A stretch of 64,000 nt of DNA from Nitrosovibrio tenuis (GTDB lineage: Bacteria; Pseudomonadota; Gammaproteobacteria; Burkholderiales; Nitrosomonadaceae), in NCBI RefSeq assembly GCF_900109785.1, contig NZ_FOBH01000002.1:124001-188000 (forward strand), given 5' to 3'. The notes below the pieces were generated by a model that was not told the origin of the DNA, searched no databases, and worked only from the letters and a program-made list of their open reading frames with translations. This document shows, piece by piece, positions 16,068-32,969 of the stretch. Position 1 is the first letter of the stretch, and each line of letters starts with the position of its first letter. Both the position numbers and the translations under genes were made by a program.

Positions 16068-18860
16068 ATGCATGCCAAAAGTAAACAGAGGTGCGTTCAA
16101 CGCGATATGTTTTCCACTCGTTTCCGTATGTGGTGGCTTTTATTGCCATTCATATTGATGACATCGGCTGTATCTGCCGATGTGCTCGAACAGCGTGATA
16201 TTGCTTTTTACTATGGCAGTCGCCCGCCTGTCGATGATTTGCGTCACTTTGACCAGATTGTCATTCAGCCGAGCCAGGTGTTGCCGCATGAGAAAGCAGC
16301 ATTATTAAAGCTGGATTCGCTGATATTTGCCTATGTTTCATTTGGTGAGATTGCCCGTAATAGCGAGGATATGCCGCGCATCAAAACGAGCTGGTCAATC
16401 GGCGTGAATCCGGCATGGAACAGCCTGGTGATGAATATGAACGATCCCGGCTGGCACGAATACCTTCTGGAACATCATTTCGCCCGCTTGTGGCGTGAGG
16501 GCTACCGCGCGTTTTTCCTGGATACTGTCGACAGTTACCTGATTGTAACGGCTGAAGGCAAGCAACGCGAGGAGCAGGAGACGGGACTGGTTGCGTTGCT
16601 GGCGGAGGTAAAGCGCCGCTTTCCCGGCTGCAAACTCATTCTCAACCGTGGTTTCGAGGTGCTGGACCGCGCCAGTCAATATGCCGACGGTATGGTTGCC
16701 GAATCGCTTTTTCACGGGTTTGACCCGGTTACTGGAAAGCACGCGCCGACCAAGGAGGAAAACAGGACATGGCTTCTCAATCAGTTGTCACGCGCGCAAA
16801 ACGAATTCAAGGTGCCGGTTACGGTGCTCGACTACGTCGAGCCGGGCAACTGGGCTGAAGCGGAAAAGACGGCGCGCGAAATCGTCAAGCTCGGGTTCAT
16901 GCCGTGGGTTGCCAATGGCGATCTGACGTGGCTGGGGCAAGGCCGGTTGCGTCTGGCCCCGCGTAAATTGCTGGCTATCGTCAACGGTTCGCCGGCTCAA
17001 CAAATGGATCATGAGCTATTCCGGCATGCAGCCATGCCTCTGGAATATCTTGGCCTGGCGCTGGACTATTGGTATATCGATCAGCTTTCGTTGCCCATCG
17101 AGCCGCTTGTTGGACGCTACGCGGGAGTTATCGCATGGCTGGGAGAAGACAGCAGTATCAGTATCGGCGAAAGTAGTACTGGCCGCTATGAGAGTACCTG
17201 CGCGCGTTTGAAAGCCGAAGTCGATGCCGGATTGCCCATGGTATTCATGGGCCATTTGCCGGCCGGGGACGCTTGCAGGAATCTGATCGATTATCAGGGA
17301 GAACTGCAGCCCACCACGCGCGCGCTTAAGCTGGGCAGCGCGGGCGAGCGGCTGGGACGGCCCAACACGGCGCCGGTCGTAGGTAGCGGCACGCCGGATA
17401 TCCGTGTTCGGGACAGGAATGAGGCATGGCTGACGTTGAGCGACGGCGACAAACTGTTTCACCCCGTTGCGGTGGGCGCATGGGGAGGCTATGCACTGCA
17501 CCCGCACATCCTGAGCGAAAGTGCGTCGGGTCGCCGCGAATGGCTGCTGGATCCCTTTTCTTTTTTTCAGGCGGCGCTGCGCCTGCCCGCGCAGCCCGTA
17601 TTCGACCTGACAACCGAAAATGGCCGTCGCCTGGGCATTATAGAAGTGCGCGGCGATCGCCTGTTCGAAAAAGACGAGCATGGTGTTGAAGCAATCGACC
17701 GGCTTCGGGCATGGGTGGAAAGAAATGGCGCTCCTGTTACGCTGGGTGTTATCGAAGCCGAAGCGGATAATGAAGAGCGGCGTAGCAAAGTTCGGCACCT
17801 GGCTTCCATGCCGCAGGTCCGCTTGGCGAGCCACACGTACAGCCATCCTTTCTACTGGGGAGTGTTCGAGGGAAAGACGGATGCAAACCAGCAGCCTTAT
17901 CGCTACAGTGTTTTTATGGACGGCTATGCGGCGGATATCACGCGGGAAACAGAGGGTACCGTCGAATTTCTAAAGTCGATGGCGCCTGATTCACCATTAC
18001 TGCTGATATGGTCCGGTGACGGCAGACCCGGGCCTGCGGCCCTGGCGGCAACGCACAAGGGAGGCCTGCCTCATTATGGTGGAGGCGGCTTGCGCTGGCA
18101 GAGCGGTTCGTTATCTTTAGCTGATCTTTCTCCCGCACTGCGGCCCACCGAGTGGGGTACACAGATCCTGACACCCCTGACGGGCGAACCGTTGTTCGCA
18201 CAGCTCTGGTATGGGGAAGCTTTGAATTTCGGCAAGATAAGCGAATGGAACAGGCAGCTCGATTCCGCGCGGCGGCTGCGCATCTCGTCCATATCCGTTC
18301 ACGCCGATGCGCTATTGCATGCGCGCGGCATGGAGCTTCTCGACGCGCTTGCCGATGAGCAGCGCAAGGAAAATACGCTGAGTATCTGGGTCGACGAATA
18401 CGTCACGCGTGCGCGGGCTTTTCAGACAGCAAGCGTCGCGCGCGACCTCAATGGCAACTGGATGCTTTTCGGCGATGCGCTCAGGACGGTTCGATTACCC
18501 GCTTCGGAAATGCTTCCCGAAATCTCAACCGATGTCGTGGGATATTCCGACCGCAACAGCGATCGCTATATCTACCTTGCACGCAATCATGCGATTCTCA
18601 AGCCCAGGCGCGAAGGGCAGACTGATGCCCCGGTTTTGCGACTGCTTCACGCCAGCGCGCCCTTGAAATCATGGCATCTCAACGCCGATGGCACGGCCAC
18701 GATTTTATTTGAGCCGCGCGGGGATGTGACGCTTGCGGTTCCTGCTTCCTGCCTGCTCAGTTCGGATGGTGAAATGCTGTCGGCTGTGCGCCAGGGTTCA
18801 CATTCCCTCTTCAATGTCTCCACCGCTAACGCCTCAGGGGAATTTCGGCTTGAGTGTTGA
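16068..18860 (+). CDS. pelA: PelA: Pel polysaccharide hydrolase/deacetylase
   Basis: A periplasmic enzyme of 930 residues that trims and deacetylates the Pel polymer. A signal peptide, WWLLLPFILMTSAVSA, follows the start. The hydrolase domain (about 35-290) has DIAFYYGSRPP, FFLDTVDSYL and MVAESLFHGFD, where E212 is the likely catalytic acid. The deacetylase domain (about 520-800) has metal-binding histidines in ASHTYSHPFYW (H589, H593). At the site of the usual Asp-x-Asp, it reads VRGDR, with Arg at 528 and Asp at 530. The ATG at 16107 is an alternative start giving a shorter signal peptide. pelB overlaps the 3' end. Confidence 0.92.
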   Translation: MHAKSKQRCVQRDMFSTRFRMWWLLLPFILMTSAVSADVLEQRDIAFYYGSRPPVDDLRHFDQIVIQPSQVLPHEKAALLKLDSLIFAYVSFGEIARNSEDMPRIKTSWSIGVNPAWNSLVMNMNDPGWHEYLLEHHFARLWREGYRAFFLDTVDSYLIVTAEGKQREEQETGLVALLAEVKRRFPGCKLILNRGFEVLDRASQYADGMVAESLFHGFDPVTGKHAPTKEENRTWLLNQLSRAQNEFKVPVTVLDYVEPGNWAEAEKTAREIVKLGFMPWVANGDLTWLGQGRLRLAPRKLLAIVNGSPAQQMDHELFRHAAMPLEYLGLALDYWYIDQLSLPIEPLVGRYAGVIAWLGEDSSISIGESSTGRYESTCARLKAEVDAGLPMVFMGHLPAGDACRNLIDYQGELQPTTRALKLGSAGERLGRPNTAPVVGSGTPDIRVRDRNEAWLTLSDGDKLFHPVAVGAWGGYALHPHILSESASGRREWLLDPFSFFQAALRLPAQPVFDLTTENGRRLGIIEVRGDRLFEKDEHGVEAIDRLRAWVERNGAPVTLGVIEAEADNEERRSKVRHLASMPQVRLASHTYSHPFYWGVFEGKTDANQQPYRYSVFMDGYAADITRETEGTVEFLKSMAPDSPLLLIWSGDGRPGPAALAATHKGGLPHYGGGGLRWQSGSLSLADLSPALRPTEWGTQILTPLTGEPLFAQLWYGEALNFGKISEWNRQLDSARRLRISSISVHADALLHARGMELLDALADEQRKENTLSIWVDEYVTRARAFQTASVARDLNGNWMLFGDALRTVRLPASEMLPEISTDVVGYSDRNSDRYIYLARNHAILKPRREGQTDAPVLRLLHASAPLKSWHLNADGTATILFEPRGDVTLAVPASCLLSSDGEMLSAVRQGSHSLFNVSTANASGEFRLEC

Positions 18861-21570
18861 GGCACAGCGCGAGTCCCTGTTGAATGCGCCTGCGCTGATG
18901 TTCATGAGCGCAGTCCTCCTGATCGCATTCTGGGTATTATTTCCGCGCCAACCCGCGTTCAGGGATCCATCCAATCTGTCGGCAAAGGACGCGTTGTCGG
19001 TAGCCTACCTCCGCGTCCTGGTTCAGTCCGATCCCGGCAATGCTCCATTACGCCTGTCATTCGTTCAATTGCTGACCGAAGCGGGAATGATCGATGAGGC
19101 GGCCCTGGCCATTGCTCCGCTGCAACGCGCCCCTGAATCCAGCCTGACTTATGAAATCCGCCTGGCGGACCTCAAGCTGTCGTTGCAACAGCTTTACCGG
19201 CATCCACCCGGCGATGTCGAGGCAGCGCTGCGCCAGCATATCGCTGCACTCGTTCCCCCACTGTTGGGAATTGCAGGTAATGACAAAGAATTAAATCAGG
19301 TCGTGGCATACGCGGAGCAGTTTGGCGAGCCTTCAGTATTGGCGGAAACCTTCGAGCAGTTGCTTGTTATACGTCATGAAAACGATGAAAAGAAGTCACG
19401 CTGGCTGGTCTTTGCCGCAAAACAGCGCATGGCGGCTGGCCAGCCGGAATTGGCCGCCCGAAATCTGTTGAGGGCGTTCATGCTCGAGCACATGCCGCAC
19501 AAAAAAACGGAAATAGCGAAGTCCTGTTTGCACGCTTACCTTCAGGCAGGTATTGATCAGGAGGCGTTAAAGGCAGCAATGCGGGTGCAGGAAAGCGTCA
19601 AAGGCGATGCCGCACTTTCGATGCTTGCCGCCGACATTGCCGAGCCGCTTGCGGACCAGGAGCATGCGCTGGCCTGGCTGGAAGAAGCGAGCCTGCTTCT
19701 TCCTAACGACCAGGCGCTAGCCGAACGTATTGTACGGCTGCAAATATCGATGGGCTTGCTGAGCGAGAGTCTCCCGAGAATTGCTCAACTGCGTAACCAC
19801 CTGGTCCTGGGCAGTGATCGCCACCGTTTGCTCGCCCATGTTTATGACTGGAACGGCCAACCCGACGAAGCCCTGGCTCTTTGGCTGTCATTTGCACGCC
19901 ACAAGGCCGATCATGAGGCGGAGGCCCGAGCCTTTGAATTGAGCCAGGCAAAAGCGGATAACAAGGCGTTGGTACAGTTGCTGGAAGCTATCATGGCTCG
20001 CCGCATACTGACGACCGCCGAAGCGGAAGCGTATGTCAAGGCCGGCCTGCGCGTTGCCGAACCCTCTCATGTGGAGCAGCAATTGCGGCGTCATGCCGAA
20101 CATTTCCAGAACCCGGCCACGACGTTGAAAGCATTGGCTGATGTACTGGTTCTGCAAGGCAAGCCCCGCGCGGCATTAGCTGTGTACCAGGAAATGCCCG
20201 GCGTGGAGAGTACCCGGCAAAGGATGGATCTGGCTCGGCTATACGACGAAGCGGGGAACGCGCAAAAGAGTTTCGAGTTACTGCTTCAAGAACTCGATTC
20301 GCCCGGCCAGGCTCATGCCGAAGAGTACTGGCTATTGCTCGGGAGAATCTCCACGCAATTGGGACAGGATGCCTATGCAAGCAGAGCCTATGAAAAAGCG
20401 CTTATCTTGCGGCCCAATGATGTGGAAATAATTGAAAATCTGCAACGCTTGGCAGTGCGCCATCGCGATGATAAAAAAAGTGAACGCCTTGCGCGTTATG
20501 GATGGGATCATTTACGGCGCATCGAGGATCTGCAACGCCTCATGCGTTTTTCCTGGAAGCGGCAAGATTGGGAAGAACTCGACCACTGGCTATCCCTGGC
20601 CGATGAAATGCAATCGGCCAAGCCATCGGCATTAGCCCAGGCGACAGACTACTGGTACTTTCAATCAATGCGCAAAATGGTAAACGGGCAGCGCGAGGCC
20701 GCTCACGATGCGTTGCGCCAAACTCTGCGGTTGCGTGGCGCGGATCCGGAAATTACCGAGGCAATGATCTGGCTGTTGCTATCGGATAAAAAAGTCGACC
20801 ATGGGCCGCTTGATGCACTCGTTCAACCTTTCCGGAACCAATCGGGCAGCCAGTCGGGGGTAAGCCCGCCTCTGGCGGAGGCCTTGGCCGCGGCGGAGCA
20901 GATGTTGGGTAAACCCACTCAGGCGGCAGCCTGGTATTTTCGATCACTGGCTACAAGACCGCGGGATTTTTTGTGGACATTGACATTGGCCGATAATATG
21001 GAATGGGCAGGCTGCCTCGGCAATGCCAATCATGCCCGGCTTTCGGCGCTGAAGTTGTTTGCATCCCATGGTTCCCATCAGGCTGAAGTGATGCACCCGG
21101 TGCGCCTGGCGGAGTATTTCTCCCCGTCCAAGGATGTGCCGGCACAACGGGGCAATGGCCCTGGACTAAAGAAGAGCGAGAAATGGCAATCCATGCGGGA
21201 GCACTGGGGTTTCACAAAAACTTTGGACAATGCGAGCTTTTTTGCGCTGCAGCGCCAGCGTGAGCGCCTGTCTTCACCAGCCTGGGAAAAGTTTGCCGAT
21301 GCGGTCAGGCGCAAAGATCAGCAAGCGGTCGCCGCGCAATTAAAAATAGTTTCCGATCATTTGCAGCATCGGCCGGACGAACCCCTCCCTCCGGATATGC
21401 TGCCGTTATCCCTGAACGACGTCGACCAGGCTAATCGTTGGCTGCCCGGAGAATCCGTGCCTGATCGAAGCGACTTGAATACCGAAGCGGACATATGCCG
21501 TCAAACGCTTGCAAAAATCCGCGACTTGCAGCGGCTGCCTGTGGCGGCTGGGGAGCAACCCGCGTTATGA
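18814..21570 (+). CDS. pelB: PelB-like tetratricopeptide protein, without outer-membrane barrel
   Basis: A protein of about 918 residues. One N-terminal membrane helix (LMFMSAVLLIAFWVLF) anchors a long helical-repeat region with TPR-like units such as HAEEYWLLLGRISTQLGQDA. In P. aeruginosa, PelB ends in a beta-barrel that exports Pel; here the sequence stays helical to the end (QTLAKIRDLQRLPVAAGEQ) and no barrel strands or terminal aromatic are seen. The start is uncertain: ATG at 18814 overlaps pelA by 47 bases, while a TTG at 18850 has AGGGGAA before it. The stop overlaps the pelD start (ATGA), so the two are translationally coupled. Confidence 0.85.
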   Translation: MSPPLTPQGNFGLSVEAQRESLLNAPALMFMSAVLLIAFWVLFPRQPAFRDPSNLSAKDALSVAYLRVLVQSDPGNAPLRLSFVQLLTEAGMIDEAALAIAPLQRAPESSLTYEIRLADLKLSLQQLYRHPPGDVEAALRQHIAALVPPLLGIAGNDKELNQVVAYAEQFGEPSVLAETFEQLLVIRHENDEKKSRWLVFAAKQRMAAGQPELAARNLLRAFMLEHMPHKKTEIAKSCLHAYLQAGIDQEALKAAMRVQESVKGDAALSMLAADIAEPLADQEHALAWLEEASLLLPNDQALAERIVRLQISMGLLSESLPRIAQLRNHLVLGSDRHRLLAHVYDWNGQPDEALALWLSFARHKADHEAEARAFELSQAKADNKALVQLLEAIMARRILTTAEAEAYVKAGLRVAEPSHVEQQLRRHAEHFQNPATTLKALADVLVLQGKPRAALAVYQEMPGVESTRQRMDLARLYDEAGNAQKSFELLLQELDSPGQAHAEEYWLLLGRISTQLGQDAYASRAYEKALILRPNDVEIIENLQRLAVRHRDDKKSERLARYGWDHLRRIEDLQRLMRFSWKRQDWEELDHWLSLADEMQSAKPSALAQATDYWYFQSMRKMVNGQREAAHDALRQTLRLRGADPEITEAMIWLLLSDKKVDHGPLDALVQPFRNQSGSQSGVSPPLAEALAAAEQMLGKPTQAAAWYFRSLATRPRDFLWTLTLADNMEWAGCLGNANHARLSALKLFASHGSHQAEVMHPVRLAEYFSPSKDVPAQRGNGPGLKKSEKWQSMREHWGFTKTLDNASFFALQRQRERLSSPAWEKFADAVRRKDQQAVAAQLKIVSDHLQHRPDEPLPPDMLPLSLNDVDQANRWLPGESVPDRSDLNTEADICRQTLAKIRDLQRLPVAAGEQPAL

Positions 21571-22847
21571 AAAAGCCGTGGCTCGAGGGTATCGAAATCA
21601 TCGATGTTAATCAGCCCGTGCCGGCATGGAGTGGATGGGCCGAAACGTTTGCATTGACCGCAATTGTGCTCGTTGCGTCGTTCGTTACCCGGCAGGATGA
21701 TCCTTTTCGGTTGGGTATGGGTTTCCCATGGCCCATCCTGGCTCCTTTATTGGCCGCGTTACGGTACGGCTTCATCCACGGTTTTGTCAGCGCCTTGCTG
21801 ATATTGGCCGCGTTGGGCATATCCATTAATCAGCATTGGCAAACCTCACCCGAGTTTCCGCTGGCGTGGGCCATTGGGGTTATTGTCATGGCAATGGTGG
21901 CGGGTGAATTTCGGGATATGTGGCAACGCCGCTTACATCGACTGGAGGGCGCTTATCAATACCGTGCGGAACGTCTTGAGGAGTTTACGCGCAATTACCA
22001 GCTGTTGCGTCTCTCCCATGATCGCCTGGAGCAAACCGTGGCCAATAGCGGATTCTCCTTACGTGAAGGAATTATGCATTTGCAGTCCGTGCTTGATGGG
22101 ATTGACGGCGCCAATGGCCTGACGAACACATCGCTGCAAAGATTGATCGAATTTGTGGCCGAGTATGGGGCATTGACGCAGGCATGCATAGTGGGCATAC
22201 AGGGTGACCGCATCAATGCGACCAGAATATTGGCCCACGTCGGGGAACAGTTTGTAATTGACGACAATGACCCTGTATTAATTACCGCGCTTGAAAGCGG
22301 GGAGCTGGCAGCAGTAAACTTCACCACGGGGATCGCAATGGATCAAAACCAGTTGCTGGCGGCTATTCCTATCTCCGACTCAACCGGTGACATCCATGCG
22401 ATGTTATTGGTGAGATCCATGCCTTTTTTTGCTTTTCACGAAAATAACTTGAAGCTCATCGCGGTACTTGTTGCGCATGGTGTCGATCATCTGCGTTTTG
22501 GAACAGCCATGCCCTCCATTGCGCGGTTTCTCGCCGCATTTGAGCGCGTGCATCAGGATTACTTGAAGTTCAAGCTCGATGCAGCACTCCTGAGGTTGTC
22601 GGGCACCAATGCCAATGTCATGGTGGCGTACGAAAAACTGCGGACTTCAGTCCGCGCCATCGATCTGATTTGCATTGCTCGTGATAATGGCCAGCCGGTT
22701 GTCTGGGTACTTCTGCCTTTGACCGATATCGCGAATGCGCGCGCGTGGATGCAGCGGGTGGATACCTTTCCAGCGGCGGTGACAAGCGAGTTGTCAGCCA
22801 TCAGCGATATCGATCTCCAGAGGATCCGCTCCCTGGAGTCGTGCTGA
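21567..22847 (+). CDS. pelD: PelD: c-di-GMP receptor of the Pel system
   Basis: An inner-membrane receptor of 426 residues that couples Pel synthesis to cyclic di-GMP. Four hydrophobic helices occupy about residues 25-115. A helical linker (LHRLEGAYQYRAERLEEF) leads to a GAF domain (about 170-310), then a degenerate GGDEF domain with no catalytic GGDEF motif. The inhibitory-site motif RxxD is kept as VRAIDLIC (R363, D366), which in PelD binds c-di-GMP. The ATG shares ATGA with the pelB stop. The next gene on this strand, pelE, is 2.8 kb away beyond three reversed genes. Confidence 0.93.
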   Translation: MKKPWLEGIEIIDVNQPVPAWSGWAETFALTAIVLVASFVTRQDDPFRLGMGFPWPILAPLLAALRYGFIHGFVSALLILAALGISINQHWQTSPEFPLAWAIGVIVMAMVAGEFRDMWQRRLHRLEGAYQYRAERLEEFTRNYQLLRLSHDRLEQTVANSGFSLREGIMHLQSVLDGIDGANGLTNTSLQRLIEFVAEYGALTQACIVGIQGDRINATRILAHVGEQFVIDDNDPVLITALESGELAAVNFTTGIAMDQNQLLAAIPISDSTGDIHAMLLVRSMPFFAFHENNLKLIAVLVAHGVDHLRFGTAMPSIARFLAAFERVHQDYLKFKLDAALLRLSGTNANVMVAYEKLRTSVRAIDLICIARDNGQPVVWVLLPLTDIANARAWMQRVDTFPAAVTSELSAISDIDLQRIRSLESC

Positions 22848-22935
22848 CAGGTCGCCGCTCCTGCAATTAAAATAACATTCCTGTCCTCATCTCTATTGGA
22901 ATTGTCCAGAAAGACTGGCTAGCCAATGAGCCCGT

Positions 22936-23307
22936 TTAGATCCCCCTTCCGTAAAGGGTTACTGTTGATCCTGCCGCATCGCCGGAACGTGCGAGAACTC
23001 TTACGGATTCGAGCGCCCTTACGTCCATGATGAACCAACCCGACCCGACCGCTTGCGTCGTAAGATCTCCGCTCGCTCCGATCAATAGCCCGGCAGGGGC
23101 AGTATAGTTACCCGCTGCGGAATAGAGCGTGATGTAATCGCCGCTCGCGTGAAAGCGCACCTGAATTTTAAAGGCAGCGAGCGGGAATTTCTCCACCTTT
23201 ACCTGTATGGCCAAGCGTTCCAGGGTGTCTATGGATATCGTTTCCAACGTCTGGTCCCCGGCATTAGTGAGAACCGCGACGCGATTTATATTTTTAGGAG
23301 TATTCAT
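22936..23307 (-). CDS. Small beta-rich protein, phage-tail-associated type
   Basis: A 123-residue protein with strongly alternating hydrophobic and polar residues, e.g. FKIQVRFHASGDYITLYS and GSGWFIMDVRALESVRVLAR, ending STVTLYGRGI. It has no signal peptide. Proteins of this look occur beside tail-fibre genes in prophages; that link is from general recall, not a search. The ATG overlaps the stop of the upstream frame by four bases, so it is coupled to it. It points towards pelD, within a reversed insert in the pel locus. Confidence 0.6.
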   Translation of the reverse strand: MNTPKNINRVAVLTNAGDQTLETISIDTLERLAIQVKVEKFPLAAFKIQVRFHASGDYITLYSAAGNYTAPAGLLIGASGDLTTQAVGSGWFIMDVRALESVRVLARSGDAAGSTVTLYGRGI

Positions 23308-23763
23308 GGGACCTCCGTATAGTGATACATCGACTGATATTCATCATTAATATGGTGGTGCTGCGAAGGTAAAGTAAGCACGATCTCAGACATATGAATG
23401 TCGCCTTCTGGGCGATAAGCACATGACTGCGTTGCCGCTATTAACCGGACAGCGAGCAGGATGCGGTAGGTAATTGGCTGCGGATGAACGGTTCTGGTGA
23501 CTTCATCTTCAGCCCCAAGGTGCAACTGCGGCGTCGACCCGGTAACCACTTCATATGATTAAATCCGAAGTATTATGCGCGGCGTCAGGCATAAGCTTGT
23601 CTTCTATCATCAGTGCGTCCGGTTCGACTGAAGGGGCTAGTCCAATGACCGCTACTCCTATATAGCGTATCTGATAGAGAATACAACTCGCGCCGGTCTG
23701 CCGAATCGCCTCAGTAAAAAATGATTGAAGAAGTGTAAACGGTGCTGCCGCTATCTCAATCAC
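23304..23763 (-). pseudogene. Frameshifted hypothetical gene in the pel insert
   Basis: Two frames read as one protein if joined by a single-base shift near 23551-23556. The first opens MIEIAAAPFTLLQSFFTEAI and ends NTSDLII; the second continues YEVVTGSTPQLHLGAEDEV and ends SMYHYTEVP. Both have normal codon use, the second frame lacks its own good start, and its stop overlaps the next gene's ATG. The joined product would be about 150 residues. I do not recognise it; position suggests a small accessory protein of the tail-like module. A sequencing error would look the same. Confidence 0.55.
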
Positions 23764-23860
23764 CTCGATGCACTTGATGCCTCATCCGTGCCGCCCCTGT
23801 TATCTCATCCGTTCACTACACCCGACATTCAGCTTGGCAAAACACACCTGATACGCATAT

Positions 23861-25408
23861 TCAGCACGTGATAACGGAGTAATCATCCCAAACGCCCGCA
23901 CTTGGCAGTGCAAATACGCCACAGGATACGCCGCACTTAACGCCGTCCAACGCATGAAGCGTATCGGGTATTTCCTCGCAGAAATTCCCGTTGATATACA
24001 GCCGGAACCGGCCGCCGCGGCAAACAACTTTCATTATCGATCCCGCAGGCAGTTGTGCCTCAACACCGTCCGGTCCTACCACCGGCCTGTCGAGGGAACC
24101 GACATTGCCCGCGACGATAGACTGTATTACGTTTCCTGTACCTAACGCGCCGGGTACTCCCCATCTATAATAATTAGCGGCGTCGGCGCCCCTGAATAGT
24201 AGCCACGTATTATTTCCGGAAACTATAGTAGCCTGTACCGAGTAATCAACAGACGGGCATGTGACCAACCCCCTGTTATTGCCCACCGTGCCAAAGGACA
24301 GTTGCCTCGTCTTTATGACGAGCGATCCGACATCAACAGTCATAGCCGATCCGACAACGGGGGTACCGACCGCACCATTGGCTCTGTTGTAATTATCCAG
24401 AAAGACGAACTTGCTATCGGCAGCGCCCGTAACCATTGCGGTTACTGCCTTGCTTCTGGACAGGGCTTCAAGGCCTGACTTCCAGTCTTCCCTTAACATC
24501 TGAAAGCCCCCATTAATCTCGCCGATATACAGACTCATACCCAAACTTCCGGCGAGATCTTGAGTCAGGCAGATCGCCGACCTGTAGTATCCCGATTCCG
24601 TTGACACCCTGCGCACACGAAAAGTGGCCCCATCGTCAAGCGATTCCGCGAACCATATATCGCCGCCGGACTCATTCCCGTCTGTGCATACACCTAGAAT
24701 ACGGCCGTCCGGGACTCTTTGGAAATGAGAATGCCACCAGCCCCGACCTAGAGGCTGAACCATTGTAATGGCGCTAAATGCCCCCCAGCCCGAATATATG
24801 CTGGAGCCCGATGTGGCGGCGACTTGGACAACTGCCGGGCCGCCTAAAGCACCGCCCGCCGTAGCTCTGTTGTGGACAATCAGCTTCCAGTTAGTCCCAT
24901 TGAACCACACGCATGGGGTATATAATGTATTGGCCGTAGCGCCGGTACTTTCCGGAAGGTCAACTATGCTGACCGGTGCGGACCAGCTAATCCCATTAGT
25001 GGATTCGGACACTTTTACCTGAGAGTGACCTGATGCATCGTGTTGTGAACTCCATATTAGATACAATGTCATCCCATCAGGGGCCTGCGCGAGTGATGTA
25101 TCCATGTTATTTCCCACGGCAGGTTTTGGTATCAATGGATTGGTTACCCCAGCCGGGACAGACCAATTCCATCCGTCATTGGAGACAACCAGGCAGGGAT
25201 TTTCATACTGTACGTCTGAGGAAGGGAATGGCGTGAAAATTCCCCAATATCTATACCCATTCCAGCCATCGGAGAAAAACAACGGTGCCAGGTATAAATT
25301 GGAGGTGTTGGAGGATATGTTTGACGGTTGGGGCAGGCGCAGCCGTTCTCGATCGGACGCCCGCATTTGATCGAAAAGGTCAAATGTGGGTGCGGTTTTT
25401 GTAACCAT
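23861..25408 (-). CDS. Sialidase-like propeller plus LamG-like protein (tail-fibre type)
   Basis: A 515-residue protein with no signal peptide. The first ~330 residues look like a beta-propeller of the sialidase/GH43 kind, with Asp-box-like motifs SLDDGATF and weaker SNDGWNWS and STNGISWS. The last ~180 residues resemble LamG/concanavalin-like domains of phage tail proteins, beginning FLDNYNRANGAVGTPVVGS and including LLFRGADAANYYRWGV and GGRFRLYINGNF. Such proteins bind or cut glycans. AGGGAGA precedes the ATG. It heads a reversed three-gene set between pelD and pelE, so a role with surface polysaccharide is possible but unproven. Confidence 0.7.
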   Translation of the reverse strand: MVTKTAPTFDLFDQMRASDRERLRLPQPSNISSNTSNLYLAPLFFSDGWNGYRYWGIFTPFPSSDVQYENPCLVVSNDGWNWSVPAGVTNPLIPKPAVGNNMDTSLAQAPDGMTLYLIWSSQHDASGHSQVKVSESTNGISWSAPVSIVDLPESTGATANTLYTPCVWFNGTNWKLIVHNRATAGGALGGPAVVQVAATSGSSIYSGWGAFSAITMVQPLGRGWWHSHFQRVPDGRILGVCTDGNESGGDIWFAESLDDGATFRVRRVSTESGYYRSAICLTQDLAGSLGMSLYIGEINGGFQMLREDWKSGLEALSRSKAVTAMVTGAADSKFVFLDNYNRANGAVGTPVVGSAMTVDVGSLVIKTRQLSFGTVGNNRGLVTCPSVDYSVQATIVSGNNTWLLFRGADAANYYRWGVPGALGTGNVIQSIVAGNVGSLDRPVVGPDGVEAQLPAGSIMKVVCRGGRFRLYINGNFCEEIPDTLHALDGVKCGVSCGVFALPSAGVWDDYSVITC

Positions 25409-25680
25409 TGTTATTCTCCCTGTATGTTGGTGGGTTCGTAGCGAATACCTTACTCGTTACTTCGGGATGCGGGCAATAGGCACATGCGTCGCTTCTCTAT
25501 TTCTAGCACAGATCTCAAGAGACTAAGGAGTTCTGGTGGGGGTGGTTACCCCATGTTTACCTTATGCTTGTGCGAACCACACCAAAAGGTTTCGTTTGAA
25601 TTAAGGAATCACTTGCTATTCGAAAAAGGACAGGCTTGGTTGCAAATGCATTTGAATATTTATTCATTTTCCACCCTTTG

Positions 25681-26691
25681 ATGCACCGTCTGCCCCTATT
25701 GTTGGGAGTTGCAGCGGAGGCTCTGGCAGCCCTACAGCTCTGGCTGAGGCCGGACAGTTTGGTTGTTGTGCTGCTCGCCGTTGTTTTTCACACTCTCGCA
25801 TCCTTTTTTTTTGCACAGGGTTTCTGGCAACTCCTCCCGCGTCGGTACAGGCTGCCCCCGCGGAGAAGTCTGGGTTTTTTATTTTTAATTTTGTGGGTTT
25901 TGCCGGTACTCGGCGTGCTGGGCATACTATGGAGTATAACCAGCGCCCTGAAACGTCCACGTAGCCGTTCCGCACGAAATATAAAGACTATTCCCTCGCC
26001 TGAGCTGCCATTTTCGCCGCCTGTCATTTTTCCGATGCCGCCCTACAGCCAGGGTGCGTTGCGCCAGATCGTGCACTTTGCCGAACGGCCCTTGAAGCGC
26101 CTTAAAGCAGTCATGGCTACGCGATATATGTCTCCGCGCGACGCGATGATGGTATGGGCCAAGGCCTCGCGTGATCCTGTCGATGATGTGCGGCTGCTGG
26201 CTTATGCCATGAAGGATGACAATGAAAAAGCACTTACTGGCCGTATCCTGGCTTTGACAGAAGCATTGCCGGACATGCCCTCGCATATGCAGGTCGCCTG
26301 TCATAAAACAATCGCCGCGTTATGCTGGGAACTGGTGTATCACCGTCTGGTGCAAGGCGCGCTCAGGCAACACTGGTTGAAAACCGCACGGCGTCATCTG
26401 GAGCTTGTAGTGGCTCCATCCACATCCGCTGCAGCCGATTCGGTCGATCCGGATAGCTGGCTATTGTATGGACGAATTCTATTGGATTCGGGCGAACTCG
26501 CCTCCGCAAAAGCGGCTTTTGCCAACGCACGGGCCAACGGCATTGACGAGCAGAAAATTCTTCCATGGTTTGCCGAGATCGCCTTCGAGGAGCGAAAATT
26601 TGACGAAGTGAAGCGCTATCTATCGGCACTCGGCCGTTCCGGCGAAAAAGGAAGGGGGCTGGCCCAGATAAAGGCGTGGTGGAACACATGA
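25681..26691 (+). CDS. pelE: PelE: inner-membrane TPR protein of the Pel system
   Basis: A 336-residue protein with an N-terminal pair of membrane helices (LLLGVAAEALAALQLWL and LLAVVFHTLASFFFAQGFW), a third hydrophobic run (LFLILWVLPVLGVLGILWS), then a cytoplasmic helical-repeat region with LLYGRILLDSGELASAKAAF. In P. aeruginosa, PelE joins PelD, PelF and PelG in the synthase complex. I chose the ATG at 25681; the frame is open 15 codons upstream. Its stop overlaps the pelF start as ATGA. Upstream lies the divergent promoter region shared with the reversed insert. Confidence 0.85.
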   Translation: MHRLPLLLGVAAEALAALQLWLRPDSLVVVLLAVVFHTLASFFFAQGFWQLLPRRYRLPPRRSLGFLFLILWVLPVLGVLGILWSITSALKRPRSRSARNIKTIPSPELPFSPPVIFPMPPYSQGALRQIVHFAERPLKRLKAVMATRYMSPRDAMMVWAKASRDPVDDVRLLAYAMKDDNEKALTGRILALTEALPDMPSHMQVACHKTIAALCWELVYHRLVQGALRQHWLKTARRHLELVVAPSTSAAADSVDPDSWLLYGRILLDSGELASAKAAFANARANGIDEQKILPWFAEIAFEERKFDEVKRYLSALGRSGEKGRGLAQIKAWWNT

Positions 26692-28283
26692 ATACTTTCG
26701 GGTCCGGGGCGGGCAAGATGGCTGTACAACTGGAGGCAGTATCAGTGGATGCAACGGTTGCGGACATTGCTTTGCTGCTGGAAGGGACCTACCCGTATAT
26801 CCGGGGGGGTGTGTCGTCCTGGGTGCATCAAATTATTAGTGGTCTGCCGGAGATCAGGTTCGCTGTAATTTTTATGGGCGGCACGCAGGAAATGTACGGC
26901 TCTGCGCAGTATCAATTCCCACCCAACGTCACCCACGTTGAAACACATTATTTGCTGCGCCAAGACAAACACTTCAAGCCGAGTGCGCGCCAGGGAAATC
27001 GCGGAGCTTTTGAAGCTATGGACGAGCTGCACGGGTACTTGCGGCAAAGCGGAAAAATGCCGGACGAGCAAATGATCAGCGCCTTAACCAGACTGGGTTC
27101 GGCGGAAGGAATCAGCCACGAGGATTTTCTATATAGTAAAGCTTCATGGGACTACATTACGCGGCAATACCGGGAGCATTGCACCGAGCCTTCGTTTATC
27201 AACTATTTCTGGGCCGTGCGCGCCATGCATGCGCCCTTGTTCGTACTCACGCGTATCGCGACCGGGCTGCCGTCCGTACGCGCCGTTCATGCCATTTCAA
27301 CGGGGTACGCGGGTTTGCTGGGCGCGATGATCCGGCTGCGGCGCAATATTCCGTTCCTTCTAACCGAGCACGGCATTTATACCAAAGAACGGAAGATCGA
27401 TCTGGCTCAGGCAACGTGGATTCATGATCACAATGATGACGTATGTAACACCCTGCACGACGAAATGGGGTATATCCGCGGACTCTGGATTAAATTTTAT
27501 GAACAGATCGGCCGCATGGCGTACGCGCAAGCGTCCCCCATTGTCAGCCTGTATGAAGGCAACCGCCTGAGGCAAATTGCGGATGGCGCGGCTGCAGAAA
27601 AAACACGTGTTATTACCAACGGCATCAACCTGCAGCGCTATCAGGTCGCGTTTGAGAAACGCCCGAACGATATCCCGCCTATTCTGGGGTTGATCGGACG
27701 CGTTGTACCCATCAAGGATATAAAAACATTTATTCGGGCATTGCGGATCCTGATCGATGAGCGACCCGACGCCCAAGGCTGGATTGTGGGTCCGGAAGAT
27801 GAAGATCCCTCGTATGTAAGCGAGTGCAAGGAATTGGTTGTCAGTCTGGGCCTGGAAAATCATGTCCGATTTCTGGGATTTCAAAATGTGCTTGAAATTC
27901 TTCCCCAACTGGGGTTGGTCGTATTGACCTCGATCAGCGAGGCGCTACCTTTGGTGGTACTGGAGGCGTTTGCCAGCGGTGTACCGTGCATTGCCACGGA
28001 TGTCGGTTCCTGCCGGGAGCTCATCGAAGGACGTGGTGAGGAGGATCGTGCCCTCGGTACAGCGGGAAGCGTTGTATTCATCGCGGACCCTGAAGGGACC
28101 GCAAAAGCAGCGCTTAAGCTGCTTGATGACCCGGAGCGTTGGCGCGCCGCGCAGCAGGCAGGACTTCAACGCGTGAAGCGTTACTACGACGACAAACTAA
28201 TGTTTTCTTCCTATCGCGATCTTTATGCACAGGCTCTGAACTCAGATCCTCAACCCCTGGCACAGCGGAGGGCAGGTACCTGA
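26688..28283 (+). CDS. pelF: PelF: GT4 glycosyltransferase of Pel synthesis
   Basis: A cytoplasmic glycosyltransferase of 531 residues that polymerises Pel from UDP-sugars. The N-terminal lobe has the PelF hallmark LLLEGTYPYIRGGVSSWVHQ. The C-terminal GT4 lobe has PPILGLIGRVVPIKDIKTFI, then the ALPLVVLEAFASGVPCIATD stretch with the E-x7-E nucleotide-sugar site. It starts at an ATG overlapping the pelE stop and ends two bases before pelG, so the three are one translational unit. Confidence 0.96.
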   Translation: MNTFGSGAGKMAVQLEAVSVDATVADIALLLEGTYPYIRGGVSSWVHQIISGLPEIRFAVIFMGGTQEMYGSAQYQFPPNVTHVETHYLLRQDKHFKPSARQGNRGAFEAMDELHGYLRQSGKMPDEQMISALTRLGSAEGISHEDFLYSKASWDYITRQYREHCTEPSFINYFWAVRAMHAPLFVLTRIATGLPSVRAVHAISTGYAGLLGAMIRLRRNIPFLLTEHGIYTKERKIDLAQATWIHDHNDDVCNTLHDEMGYIRGLWIKFYEQIGRMAYAQASPIVSLYEGNRLRQIADGAAAEKTRVITNGINLQRYQVAFEKRPNDIPPILGLIGRVVPIKDIKTFIRALRILIDERPDAQGWIVGPEDEDPSYVSECKELVVSLGLENHVRFLGFQNVLEILPQLGLVVLTSISEALPLVVLEAFASGVPCIATDVGSCRELIEGRGEEDRALGTAGSVVFIADPEGTAKAALKLLDDPERWRAAQQAGLQRVKRYYDDKLMFSSYRDLYAQALNSDPQPLAQRRAGT

Positions 28284-28284
28284 C

Positions 28285-29655
28285 ATGGCGGGCATAGGCT
28301 TCGAAATTCGCAAAATTCTGGAGCGCGACAGTTACTGGTCGGTATTGCGCGCCTATGGTTATGCGGGCCTGGTGAGCGGTGGCCCCTGGGCCCTCTCGAT
28401 ACTGAGCATCATGATGATTGGCGTTCTTGCCGTCACCCTGGATGTTGCGCAGCAGGAAGTCAACGCCTTCCAGATTTGCGTAACCTACCTCATGGCCACC
28501 TCGTTGATCTGGAGCGGCGGCATGCAGCTGATGTTCACGCGTTTCGTGGCGGATCGGACTTACGCGGGCGAACAAGCCGAGGTGCTTCCCAACCTTTTCG
28601 GGGTCCTGATGGTCACCATGGTCGGTGGTTTCGCCTGGGCCGCGCCCATCATTTTCTGGCTATTCGATGGGCCGTTTTTCCAGCAGTTATTGCTGCTGTG
28701 CAATTTCGTGGCACTGAGCGGCTTGTGGATCGCCCTTATCTTTTTATCGGGCATGAAAGCATACAGGCGGATCGTTTGGACGCTAGCGAAGGGTTACTCC
28801 CTAGGAATTGCGATAGCGCTTGCGGCGGCGTCATGGGGGCTGAATGGCCTGTTACTGGGCGTGTTGATCGGGCACAGTTACCTGTTATTTTCGTTTTTAC
28901 ACCACATAGTGCGCGAATATCCGGGAAACGCGCTGCTTAAATTCGATTTTCTCAACCGCAACCGGAGCTTTTACAGTTTATTTGCCGTCGGCACTCTTTA
29001 TTACCTGGCCGTGTGGGTCGACAAGTTCATTTTCTGGTTTATCCCGCATACCTCCGAAGCGGTGATTGGTCCGCTGAGAGCTTCCATCATTTATGATCTT
29101 CCAATTTTTCTGGCTTACCTGTTCATCCTGCCCGGCATGGCAGTATTTCTGGTCAGCATGGAAGCCGATTTCGCCGAACAGAACGAGCGTTTTTACCGTG
29201 CCATCCGGGAGGGAGACACGCTTATGCATATAGAATACAGGCGGGACCGGATGGTTTATGCCGCGCGGCAAGGCATTTACGAGATCTTCAAAGTGCAAGG
29301 CATAACGGTTGCGCTATGCCTCCTGTGGGGCAGGGACCTTCTGCATGCAATCGGCATTTCTCCGCTATACATACATTTATTTTATATCGACGTCGTGGCA
29401 GTGAGTGTGCAGGTACTGCTGATGGCGATACTCAATGTGCTCTTTTACCTCGACGCCCGCCGGGAAGTGCTGATCATTACCACATGTTTTTTTGTTACTA
29501 ACCTGGTATTCACTGGAGCCACCCTGCAACTCGGCGCTGAGACTTTCGGCTACGGCTTTGCTGCTTCTGTCACGCTGTCCGCCTTTCTCGGCCTGTTTAT
29601 CCTCTCGCATAAATTCAACCGGCTGGAGTACGAAACATTCATGCTGCAGAATTAG
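28285..29655 (+). CDS. pelG: PelG: Wzx-like Pel membrane protein
   Basis: An inner-membrane protein of 456 residues with about twelve hydrophobic segments, related to polysaccharide flippases. It opens MAGIGFEIRKILERDSYWSV, the characteristic PelG start, and has YAGLVSGGPWALSILSIMMI as the first helix. It works with PelD, PelE and PelF to make or translocate Pel. The ATG follows the pelF stop by one base. The locus ends here; the following 200 bases before the converging regulator gene hold no gene I can support. Confidence 0.95.
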   Translation: MAGIGFEIRKILERDSYWSVLRAYGYAGLVSGGPWALSILSIMMIGVLAVTLDVAQQEVNAFQICVTYLMATSLIWSGGMQLMFTRFVADRTYAGEQAEVLPNLFGVLMVTMVGGFAWAAPIIFWLFDGPFFQQLLLLCNFVALSGLWIALIFLSGMKAYRRIVWTLAKGYSLGIAIALAAASWGLNGLLLGVLIGHSYLLFSFLHHIVREYPGNALLKFDFLNRNRSFYSLFAVGTLYYLAVWVDKFIFWFIPHTSEAVIGPLRASIIYDLPIFLAYLFILPGMAVFLVSMEADFAEQNERFYRAIREGDTLMHIEYRRDRMVYAARQGIYEIFKVQGITVALCLLWGRDLLHAIGISPLYIHLFYIDVVAVSVQVLLMAILNVLFYLDARREVLIITTCFFVTNLVFTGATLQLGAETFGYGFAASVTLSAFLGLFILSHKFNRLEYETFMLQN

Positions 29656-29858: not shown

Positions 29859-32800
29859 TCAGGCAGCGTCGACAAGATTTACATTCAAGCCGGCTTGGCG
29901 CGGGGTTATCTGGACCGATCCATCGATCACAACCGGAACATTAGTTCCCGTTGAACTCCATAAATGTTCACGTAATGGATCAGAATCCTGAAGTGAGCCG
30001 AGCAGCTTTTTGATTGCTTGCTGTTTTTTGTACTGGCAGACGTGGGCTGTTCCTATATTGCCCAGTCGATGATCCAATTTTTCTGCGGCTCCGTATACGC
30101 GCCAGGCAGCAAGCGGAACTTCCGAACTCTCTACAATGTTGAGGGCATTGGTAACATGCAGACTAGCCTCATTCAACGCTTCTTCTTTTATGGCAATCTC
30201 TGCAAATAACCAATAACTGAGCGCCAGATAAGTATTTTCAGGTGCGCCCGCCGCAAGGTCGTGCAACCGTTGGGCATAATGCCGCGCTTTTTCGAAATCT
30301 CCCACCGATAACCAGGCTTCGCTCGCTCCCTGGCAGGCGGGAAAGGAATAGTTACGCGATATGGGAAGTGAGTCGTTTTCCTCCGCTTTGAAAAAGGTTT
30401 CGAAGCAGCGGATGGCACCCGCGTAGTCTCCTATCCCAAGTAATGCCTTTCCATATATGGCCGAAAAATGGACCGAGATAAACACAGCCCAAGGCCCAAG
30501 ATTTGGCGGCAACGCTTCTTCACAGTATGTTTTGGCACTTTCAAAATCGCAGGCCTCCACGTACAGCCAAGCTGTCAGGATCTGGCCGTGCAAACGCAGG
30601 GGTAGAGTTGCATCGTTACAGTTGCGTTCAAACGCACGCCGGCTTTCCTCTGCAATCTGGCGTAATTTTCCCCACTCGCCCAAATGCAGCAAAGCCAATC
30701 CATAATAGTAATGCCCAACCATAAATATATAGCCATCGCCCAACGTACGGGATAATGCCAGGGCCTCTTCAGCCGTCGTACAGGCACTTCTATAATTCGA
30801 GGCCAGCAACTCGATATAGATATGCTGTGTTAGTCGCGAGTGCAGTACAAGCGGGTTCGAGCTGGTGCGAGCCACATTCATCGCCTTATGGCAGGCCCTG
30901 GCGTAATCTGCGCACCATGGACCAAACAAGAGGTTCAGCCCGCCCCACATACCCTTGACCAGCGACTGAAGAATTCCGTCATCAAGATCTTTACTGCGCG
31001 CCATCGCTTGTTCCGCCAATTCAAGACATTCCCGACGATCCAGCCATACCGAGACACGGCTCAATTCGAGAAGGGCCAAAACCTCTGCCCGGCGGTTGCC
31101 CGAGGCTTTGGCCGTGGCGAGCATATTTTCCAGGTCGGCTTTAGCGCCAGCTATTTCACCCATGGAGCGGCGTATTGCCGAAGAGTGTTTCAGGAGATCG
31201 ATGCGTGTTTCGGCCTGCTTTTCCTGCGGCAGCCGCTCAACCATGCCCAACGCACGGACGAGATAGTCGTAGGCCTCGCGATTCGCGAACCGCTGTGCCG
31301 CATTGGCCGCTGCTTGCGTCAGATAACCAACTGCTCGATTCCAGTCCCATCCCTTTTCAAAATGCAGGGACAATTCAGCGGCATACTTCAGATCCTGTTT
31401 GCCGTGCAATCGTTCGAGGCATTCACCAATGCGTAAATGCAACCTTATGAGCTCGCCGGCGGAAAGCCGTTGATAGAGCACCTCGACATATAAAGCATGG
31501 CGGAACGCATAGTTACAGACAGCCTCGCCCTGTACACCCCGCTCCATACCATCCGAAAGCAATATGTGGCCACGCCTGACCAATGTATCGCAGCAGCGAT
31601 CTACCTCGGCCATCTGAATATCGAGTACCGCACTGAGCAGTATCGCCGAAAAGTGAGAGCCTATTGCGCTGGCGACTCCCAACAGGTGTTGCTCATCAAA
31701 GCTCAATCGTTCAATCTCGCGTTCGATCACGCGGCGGATGGTATCCGGTAGCGCCTTATCCACTACTATATCCGGGGACAGGGGCCAGCCCTGGTGTTGA
31801 CTTACCAAATACTCGGTCAGATTGGAGACAAACAGGGGGAGCCCACCGGTCCTGGTGAAAAGCGCCTGGCTTACTGAATCCGGAATTTCGATATCAGGGA
31901 AACGCCGGATCAGGTAGCCCTTGACCTCATCCAGGGAGAAGGGATCCACAGCGATCTCGGAGCTGACGCCGCGCATCTGCAGCTCATCGTGGATCAAGGC
32001 AATAGGGTGAGTATGCAGGCTGGCATCGACTGGCCGATAGCTTGCCACAATCATAATGGGCACCGGCTCATTGCGGCGCGCGAGTAAGCTGAGAAAGTCC
32101 AGGGTCGCGTGGTCGCTCCAATGTAGATCCTCCAGCACCGCAATCAACGGCGTATCCTTGCTTAAGGCTTCGAGCAGCTCGCATCCTTCCCTTACCATGC
32201 GCTCACGGCTCGCGCCGAAGATTTCGCGCTGGAGCGCTTCTCGCTCTTCCAGTTTCAGTACTGACGGAAATTGCGCAAGCCAGACCGGCGCGTGGCGACG
32301 TAGAGACTCGATCAGTTTGCTGCCTCCTGGTGCACGGCAATGTTTTTCCATTGCCTCGATCATGGGAAGCAGGGCCTCACCCTGACCAAAATGCTTGACA
32401 CAACGCATGCGTAAGACCATCGGAGCATAGTCGCCCACCTGGTCGAGAAACATTTCAATCAGGGTTGTTTTGCCGATTCCAGGCTCGCCTGTCAGGAAAA
32501 CAACCTGGCGCAAGCGTTCCAGCGATTTTTGCCAGATAGTCAGCAATTTGGCTTGAACCAAATCGCGGTCGATCCAGTAGCCTGATCTGTTGGTTAGCCG
32601 ATCCTCACGGCGAGCGCTGATTGCAGACTCTTCCGTTTTCTTCGCAGGTTGAATTTCAGTAACCGGCGCAGCAAAGCGGTAGCCGCGTCGAGCGGCGGTT
32701 ACCAGATAGGTTGGAGCATGGGCATCATCTCCCAATACCTGGCGCAGCTCGTTAATGCAGACTTTCAGCACCGCCTCGCCGACGCAACGATGCTGCCACA

Positions 32801-32969
32801 CGGCGTCCAGCAACTCATCCTTCGTCACGAGCTGGCCGTGCCGTTCAATCAAATAACACAACGCAGCAAAACTCTTGGGCCGCAATGGCACCACCTGATC
32901 GTTGCGCCAAAGCGTGGCATTGGCTTTGTCCAACCTGAAAGGGTGGAATTCCCAGCAATTTATCTGCAT
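29859..32969 (-). CDS. Large transcriptional regulator: winged helix, ATPase and TPR-like domains
   Basis: A 1036-residue protein in three parts. Residues 1-102 are an OmpR-type winged helix (LRPKSFAALCYLIERHGQLV to TAARRGYRFA). Next is a STAND-like ATPase with Walker A GEPGIGKTT (about 161-169) and Walker B LIAVLEDLHWSDH. The remaining ~550 residues are helical repeats of the TPR kind (HYYYGLALLHLGEWGKLRQI). Such proteins are cytoplasmic regulators that sense a ligand through the ATPase/repeat region; the target is unknown. It converges on pelG, so it is a candidate regulator of the locus, though position is the only evidence. Confidence 0.85.
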   Translation of the reverse strand: MQINCWEFHPFRLDKANATLWRNDQVVPLRPKSFAALCYLIERHGQLVTKDELLDAVWQHRCVGEAVLKVCINELRQVLGDDAHAPTYLVTAARRGYRFAAPVTEIQPAKKTEESAISARREDRLTNRSGYWIDRDLVQAKLLTIWQKSLERLRQVVFLTGEPGIGKTTLIEMFLDQVGDYAPMVLRMRCVKHFGQGEALLPMIEAMEKHCRAPGGSKLIESLRRHAPVWLAQFPSVLKLEEREALQREIFGASRERMVREGCELLEALSKDTPLIAVLEDLHWSDHATLDFLSLLARRNEPVPIMIVASYRPVDASLHTHPIALIHDELQMRGVSSEIAVDPFSLDEVKGYLIRRFPDIEIPDSVSQALFTRTGGLPLFVSNLTEYLVSQHQGWPLSPDIVVDKALPDTIRRVIEREIERLSFDEQHLLGVASAIGSHFSAILLSAVLDIQMAEVDRCCDTLVRRGHILLSDGMERGVQGEAVCNYAFRHALYVEVLYQRLSAGELIRLHLRIGECLERLHGKQDLKYAAELSLHFEKGWDWNRAVGYLTQAAANAAQRFANREAYDYLVRALGMVERLPQEKQAETRIDLLKHSSAIRRSMGEIAGAKADLENMLATAKASGNRRAEVLALLELSRVSVWLDRRECLELAEQAMARSKDLDDGILQSLVKGMWGGLNLLFGPWCADYARACHKAMNVARTSSNPLVLHSRLTQHIYIELLASNYRSACTTAEEALALSRTLGDGYIFMVGHYYYGLALLHLGEWGKLRQIAEESRRAFERNCNDATLPLRLHGQILTAWLYVEACDFESAKTYCEEALPPNLGPWAVFISVHFSAIYGKALLGIGDYAGAIRCFETFFKAEENDSLPISRNYSFPACQGASEAWLSVGDFEKARHYAQRLHDLAAGAPENTYLALSYWLFAEIAIKEEALNEASLHVTNALNIVESSEVPLAAWRVYGAAEKLDHRLGNIGTAHVCQYKKQQAIKKLLGSLQDSDPLREHLWSSTGTNVPVVIDGSVQITPRQAGLNVNLVDAA

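Follow-up and report, generated by a model that had tools for sequence, protein, structure and literature searches.

The pel locus and its insert

The window, a stretch of 64,000 nucleotides from Nitrosovibrio tenuis (positions 124,001 to 188,000 of contig NZ_FOBH01000002.1), carries an exopolysaccharide operon, pel, in which a segment of about 2.83 kb was found between pelD and pelE. The genome is a draft of 3.10 Mb in 32 contigs and is labelled G000; other genomes and fetched loci are given G- and L-numbers. An earlier reading of the sequence alone had placed pelA-pelB-pelD and pelE-pelF-pelG on the plus strand with minus-strand genes between them, and this arrangement was confirmed by the open reading frames (ORFs), by the family matches of PelF and PelG and by tblastn across 22 loci (Table 1). 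The insert contains two intact ORFs of 515 and 123 amino acids (aa), one probably broken gene and the remnant of an insertion sequence (IS). Two short ORFs, 70 and 81 aa long, also lie between the two intact ORFs.

Table 1. Features of the pel locus and its insert (positions in the window)
Feature	Position	Strand	Evidence and remarks
pelA	16068-18860	+	ORF; GH114 E 1e-14, polysaccharide deacetylase match below threshold; relatives keep the gene order
pelB	ORF to 21570	+	TPR match; relatives keep the gene order
pelD	21495-22847	+	Ancestral stop TGA at 22845-22847; PelD_GGDEF E 8e-4, below the Pfam cut-off; aligned with 22 relatives
Insert, about 2.83 kb	22848-25678		Within the ancestral TGATG stop/start overlap of pelD and pelE
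25-nt stretch	22891-22915	-	88% identity to 24382-24406 (FLDNYNR-coding part of the 515-aa gene); one frame reads VFLDNSNR; just downstream of the 123-aa ORF
123-aa ORF	22936-23307	-	Homologue in a phage; preceded by GGAGG
Small gene, probably interrupted: C-terminal piece	23304-23427	-	Stop overlaps the ATG of the 123-aa ORF by 4 bases (23304-23307)
5-bp duplication ATGAC	23423-23427 (left), 23645-23649 (right)		Flanks the IS remnant
IS remnant, 217 bp	23428-23644		Internally deleted, both terminal regions present; matches both ends of the G007 element
Small gene, probably interrupted: N-terminal piece	23645-23763	-	ORF
Block shared with G022:C1:2197662-2199304	23857-25509	-	91% identity in DNA; covers the 515-aa gene with about 100 bases ahead of its ATG and about 4 bases beyond its stop codon
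515-aa ORF	23861-25408	-	N-terminal propeller (about residues 20-310), 6n1a GalNAc-deacetylase family; C-terminal domain at about 325-515
Terminator-like hairpin	25358-25392	+	Faces the pel direction; 15 pairs, then a T-run; 6 found against 3.2 +/- 1.7 expected
Right end of insert	25510-25680		G+C 0.409; contains TTG 25636, which shares the pelE frame and is preceded by AAGGA
pelE	25681-26691	+	Ancestral ATG kept; open frame extends to TTG 25636; ORF and comparison with relatives
pelF	26676-28283	+	NCBIfam PelF E 3e-232
pelG	28285-29655	+	Pfam PelG E 2e-148

The pel loci of 22 relatives of the same genus, the nearest with about 84% PelF identity, were followed by tblastn. pelD and pelE overlap at the stop and start codons in all 22, as TGATG or TAATG in 20 loci (scored by script) and as ATGA in two (by eye). 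The insert was found at the pel locus of none of these relatives, and N. tenuis is the only one of 23 genomes of the genus to have it. At the site in the window, a TGA is followed by about 2.83 kb and then by TGATG, and pelD and pelE both retain their ancestral ends. The insert is a foreign segment in the pelD/pelE overlap and neither gene is damaged. TGA at both edges of the insert (22845-22847 and 25679-25681) is possibly a 3-bp duplication, or it may have arisen by chance.

This comparison bears on two other explanations. That the minus-strand genes are a normal accessory module of pel in the genus is the least probable explanation of all, and is refuted within these genomes, where they occur at this site as ordinary pel members in 0 of 22 loci. 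The insert could also be a wrong join made during assembly; the genome is a draft and the insert is seen in this genome only. However, both edges lie within one five-base TGATG site and the flanking genes are intact, which a single misjoin cannot produce, and the insert is interior to the 441,940-base contig of which the window is part. An assembly artefact, named in the earlier reading as an outcome that would undo it, is therefore very improbable.

A propeller protein related to a GalNAc deacetylase

The propeller of the 515-aa protein was found to be homologous to the metallo-N-acetylgalactosamine (GalNAc) deacetylase of Flavonifractor plautii (PDB 6n1a/6n1b), with a phmmer E value of 1.9e-15 for 6n1a. 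The two share the fold, with about 20% identity over it. The window protein was aligned with the proteins of 17 of 19 genome loci, giving 18 rows in which the F. plautii enzyme is included, and E69, D103, H226 and R276 were invariant in all of them. E64, D100 and H252, which we take to be the active-site residues of the F. plautii enzyme, fit the alignment with an offset of 20. By homology the propeller is closest to a GalNAc deacetylase, and the description of the protein as glycan-binding is better refined to glycan-modifying enzyme-like.

The propeller half of the "propeller/LamG-like" protein named in the sequence-only reading was thereby upheld, and the LamG-like half was not. The C-terminal domain alone, used as a query, gave no match in the phage collection and matched only its own genome among 150 genomes of the order, and a structure model of this domain was useless (mean predicted local distance difference test score, pLDDT, 34.6). 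Since the domain searches were empty and the model was useless, the LamG-like appearance is an impression only. The 515-aa protein differs from the F. plautii enzyme in its unmatched C-terminal half and, as far as a simple hydrophobicity check can tell, in the lack of a signal peptide. By the same check no signal peptide was seen in the 123-aa protein; the hydrophobicity peak of the 515-aa protein was 0.62, against 2.27 for PelA. Neither protein received a functional name from Pfam, NCBIfam or PHROGs; the PHROGs match of the 515-aa protein, phrog_37952, is a family of unknown function.

Relatives among phage and virus proteins

Matches to the 515-aa protein were found in 6 of 50,697 phage records, among them two pairs of near-identical records. 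Five of the six are annotated as minor tail proteins, including Ingrid gp21 and Ranunculus gp34 of Arthrobacter phages and Leaf gp77 of a Microbacterium phage; the sixth, of Vibrio phage HY01, is annotated as hypothetical. The four homologues named here, from phages of unrelated hosts, are 523-1332 aa long. Their identity to the window protein is 26-32% and is confined to the propeller part, 43-50% of the query. Scans of viral contigs with the single 515-aa or 123-aa protein as query gave no relatives, and 19 virus contigs matched when alignment A2 was used. In three of them, L140, L141 and L143, the similarity extends over nearly the whole protein, the C-terminal domain included, at 26-34% identity. 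The relative in L141 directly follows a head-tail adaptor gene, and those in L140 and L143 follow a portal gene with small ORFs intervening. A fourth relative, in L142, is also almost full-length and lies on a contig of 5.7 kb. Relatives of the 515-aa protein thus occur among phage structural genes, a short way behind a portal or head-tail adaptor gene; the copy in the window, by contrast, is located within pel.

One of 72,556 plasmid records matched the 515-aa protein, over a partial domain only. A search of the phylum gave 22 matches in 398 genomes at E <= 1e-5, of which eight were strong (E below 1e-50, own genome included); the weak matches may be other propellers.

In the uncultured Caudovirales phage LR797314, gp5 is a homologue of the 123-aa protein, with 44% identity over residues 21-119 (E 2e-15). 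The gp5 gene comes after a gene for a terminase subunit, and capsid and head-completion genes are close by. Order-wide searches were made in a sample of 399 genomes and their counts are lower bounds, because the match of G022 was not included in the sample; at least two of the 399 matched the 123-aa protein, one being its own genome and the other G369, where the region looked phage-like by eye. The suspicion that the insert is of phage origin was supported, with the relatives of both intact ORFs lying in structural regions of phage or virus genomes.

An insertion sequence remnant, probably in a small gene

The four-base overlap reported at the start of the 123-aa ORF is real. The gene upstream of it had been described as frameshifted. 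It is most likely not a frameshifted gene but a small gene interrupted by the IS remnant. The related element is repeated in genome G007, where it is 1320-1323 bp long and carries a pair of transposase ORFs, one matching HTH_Tnp_1 and the other HTH_21 and rve. We take elements with this pair of transposases to be of the IS3 type. Target duplications of 5 bp were found at five of five distinct complete copies in G007, truncated or partly fetched copies being left out of this count, and one tested copy in G011 had none. The window copy shares the terminal regions and the 5-bp duplication with these elements, but with a length of only 217 bp it lacks both transposase ORFs. The status of the small gene itself is one that we infer, since neither of its two pieces gave a significant relative by search.

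A second copy in the genus

The 515-aa gene is present in 2 of the 23 genomes of the genus, N. tenuis and G022. The G022 copy shows 91% DNA identity and 91-92% protein identity and lies about 1.8 Mb from the uninterrupted pel locus of that genome. Over 508 codons the two copies differ at 29, 16 and 78 sites at codon positions 1, 2 and 3, respectively. In G022 (contig C1; locus L035:9663-11305 and flanks) the gene was seen by eye to be flanked on one side by a repeat protein whose end is PEP-CTERM-like and on the other by apparent debris of a transposase; IS fragments and YedK-like fragments are close to it.

Origin of the insert

The best explanation for the insert is that a fragment of phage or decayed-prophage DNA, read as debris of phage structural genes, entered the pel operon through illegitimate recombination and has become a passenger (probability about 0.72). 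The recombination may have been IS-associated or of another kind, and the captured segment would since have been carried along with its genes running against pel. The 25-nt stretch downstream of the 123-aa ORF may be what is left of another phage gene. As a phage protein, the 515-aa product was probably active outside cells, where it would bind and deacetylate a GalNAc-containing surface polysaccharide at adsorption.

Several observations weigh against this explanation. Neither an integrase nor a phage gene cluster was seen within the insert, which does not have the make-up of an intact prophage, and no IS was found at its edges. Relatives of the 123-aa protein were not found in the virus records L140, L141 and L143, and only two relatives were found; the two intact ORFs therefore need not share one source phage. 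Both intact ORFs have good upstream ribosome-binding sequences. The ratio of nonsynonymous to synonymous substitution rates (dN/dS) between the 515-aa gene and the G022 copy was 0.18 by NG86 and 0.25 by YN00. A value of about 0.2 points to purifying selection somewhere, possibly after capture, and does not separate the time before capture from the time after it.

Purifying selection between two chromosomal copies, together with intact ORFs and phage relatives, would also fit a retained anti-phage trait. Related phages would then be blocked by the phage-derived protein or its small partner, which might alter or occupy a receptor glycan. Such a trait is unlikely here: the simple check showed no signal peptide, and the gene is confined to two of the 23 genomes, in differing settings.

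Relation of the 515-aa gene to pel

Pel is described in a passage of PMC12022489 as a partially deacetylated GalNAc polymer that is deacetylated by PelA, whose deacetylase is the founding member of family CE21; the same source compares the PelA deacetylase domain to CE4 and CE18 enzymes and reports that it also acts on GalNAc oligosaccharides. It is a striking coincidence that a relative of a GalNAc deacetylase lies in the operon for this very polymer. An explanation could be that a Pel-modifying enzyme was captured and that the 515-aa protein was kept to deacetylate Pel or its oligosaccharides, besides the PelA deacetylase. The kinship of the propeller, the invariance of E69, D103 and H226 in 18 rows and the low dN/dS are all consistent with such a role. 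In its most specific form, a captured phage virion GalNAc deacetylase would tune how far Pel or its fragments are acetylated and so act as a second, unrelated Pel deacetylase, possibly giving resistance to phages that use Pel.

Both forms of this idea are nevertheless quite improbable. The protein shows no signal peptide by the simple check, its gene lies on the strand opposite to pel, and the sole other copy in the genus is away from pel. Furthermore, pelD, pelE or pelG matches were found at none of 45 homologue loci (19 genome, 7 proteobacterial and 19 virus loci; tblastn of the fetched flanks with the window proteins as queries), a count in which the loci are not all independent (L094 and L095, and L150 and L157, look alike, and L090 and L155 are contigs of equal size), several contigs stop near the gene, and most of the genome loci are from Gram-positive bacteria, whose pel proteins are more divergent. 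Part of PelF gave a weak match at 3 of the 19 genome loci, as is to be expected from other GT4 enzymes. No recurrent link of the 515-aa gene to pel was found in these comparisons, and the proposal that the insert is glycan-binding cargo retained for a role at the pel locus was not supported. In the open-licence literature on pel operon insertions and gene order, the pel operon in Nitrosomonas, phage depolymerases and Pel, the F. plautii deacetylase and phage GalNAc deacetylases, neither the insert nor a phage member of the family was reported among the titles and abstract openings of the matches listed.

Probable consequences for pel expression

In the relatives, pelE must have its ribosome-binding region inside the end of pelD, which here is 2.8 kb away, and translational coupling from pelD to pelE would have been ended by the insert. 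No Shine-Dalgarno sequence can be recognised ahead of the ancestral ATG at 25681. A TTG in the same frame, 15 codons upstream at 25636, follows AAAAAGGACAGG. This TTG is therefore the likeliest start of PelE here, and pelEFG would then probably be translated from a new start brought in by the insert.

As to transcription, pel is probably split into two units. A promoter scan gave five sites against 3.5 +/- 2.1 expected; three were on the plus strand (22844, 23834 and 24200) and none on that strand from 25410 to 25636. Transcription of pelEFG must then either read through the 2.8 kb or begin at an unrecognised promoter. The terminator-like hairpin could further hinder read-through, but given its position within coding sequence and its shorter form in the G022 copy it may be due to chance.

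Other pel genes and neighbours

A second, divergent pel locus was seen in the same genome (G000:C22:433326-434816, locus L061), with 51% PelF and 48% PelG identity and the order D-E-F-G-A. It could serve as a backup for the split operon. Extra PelF copies are also present in G001, G015, G016 and G022, and a passage of PMC7112194 mentions a duplicated pel operon in Nitrosospira multiformis.

pelB and pelD overlap at 21495-21570 and leave no space for pelC between them; the alignments indicate the same in the relatives (the G002 contig lacks pelB), and pelC was sought nowhere else. Past pelG, a big minus-strand ORF at 29859-32969 is convergent with pel and looks like a regulator, with winged-helix and ATPase features by eye.

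Significance

The locus is a case of a conserved exopolysaccharide operon that has been split by DNA probably derived from a phage, with the pel genes themselves undamaged. The propeller family, represented in the PDB by a single GalNAc deacetylase (6n1a/6n1b), is now linked to proteins encoded in phage structural regions, and this kinship suggests that such phage proteins may deacetylate GalNAc polysaccharides. If any of them acts on Pel, it would represent a biofilm-active enzyme of a new kind among phages.
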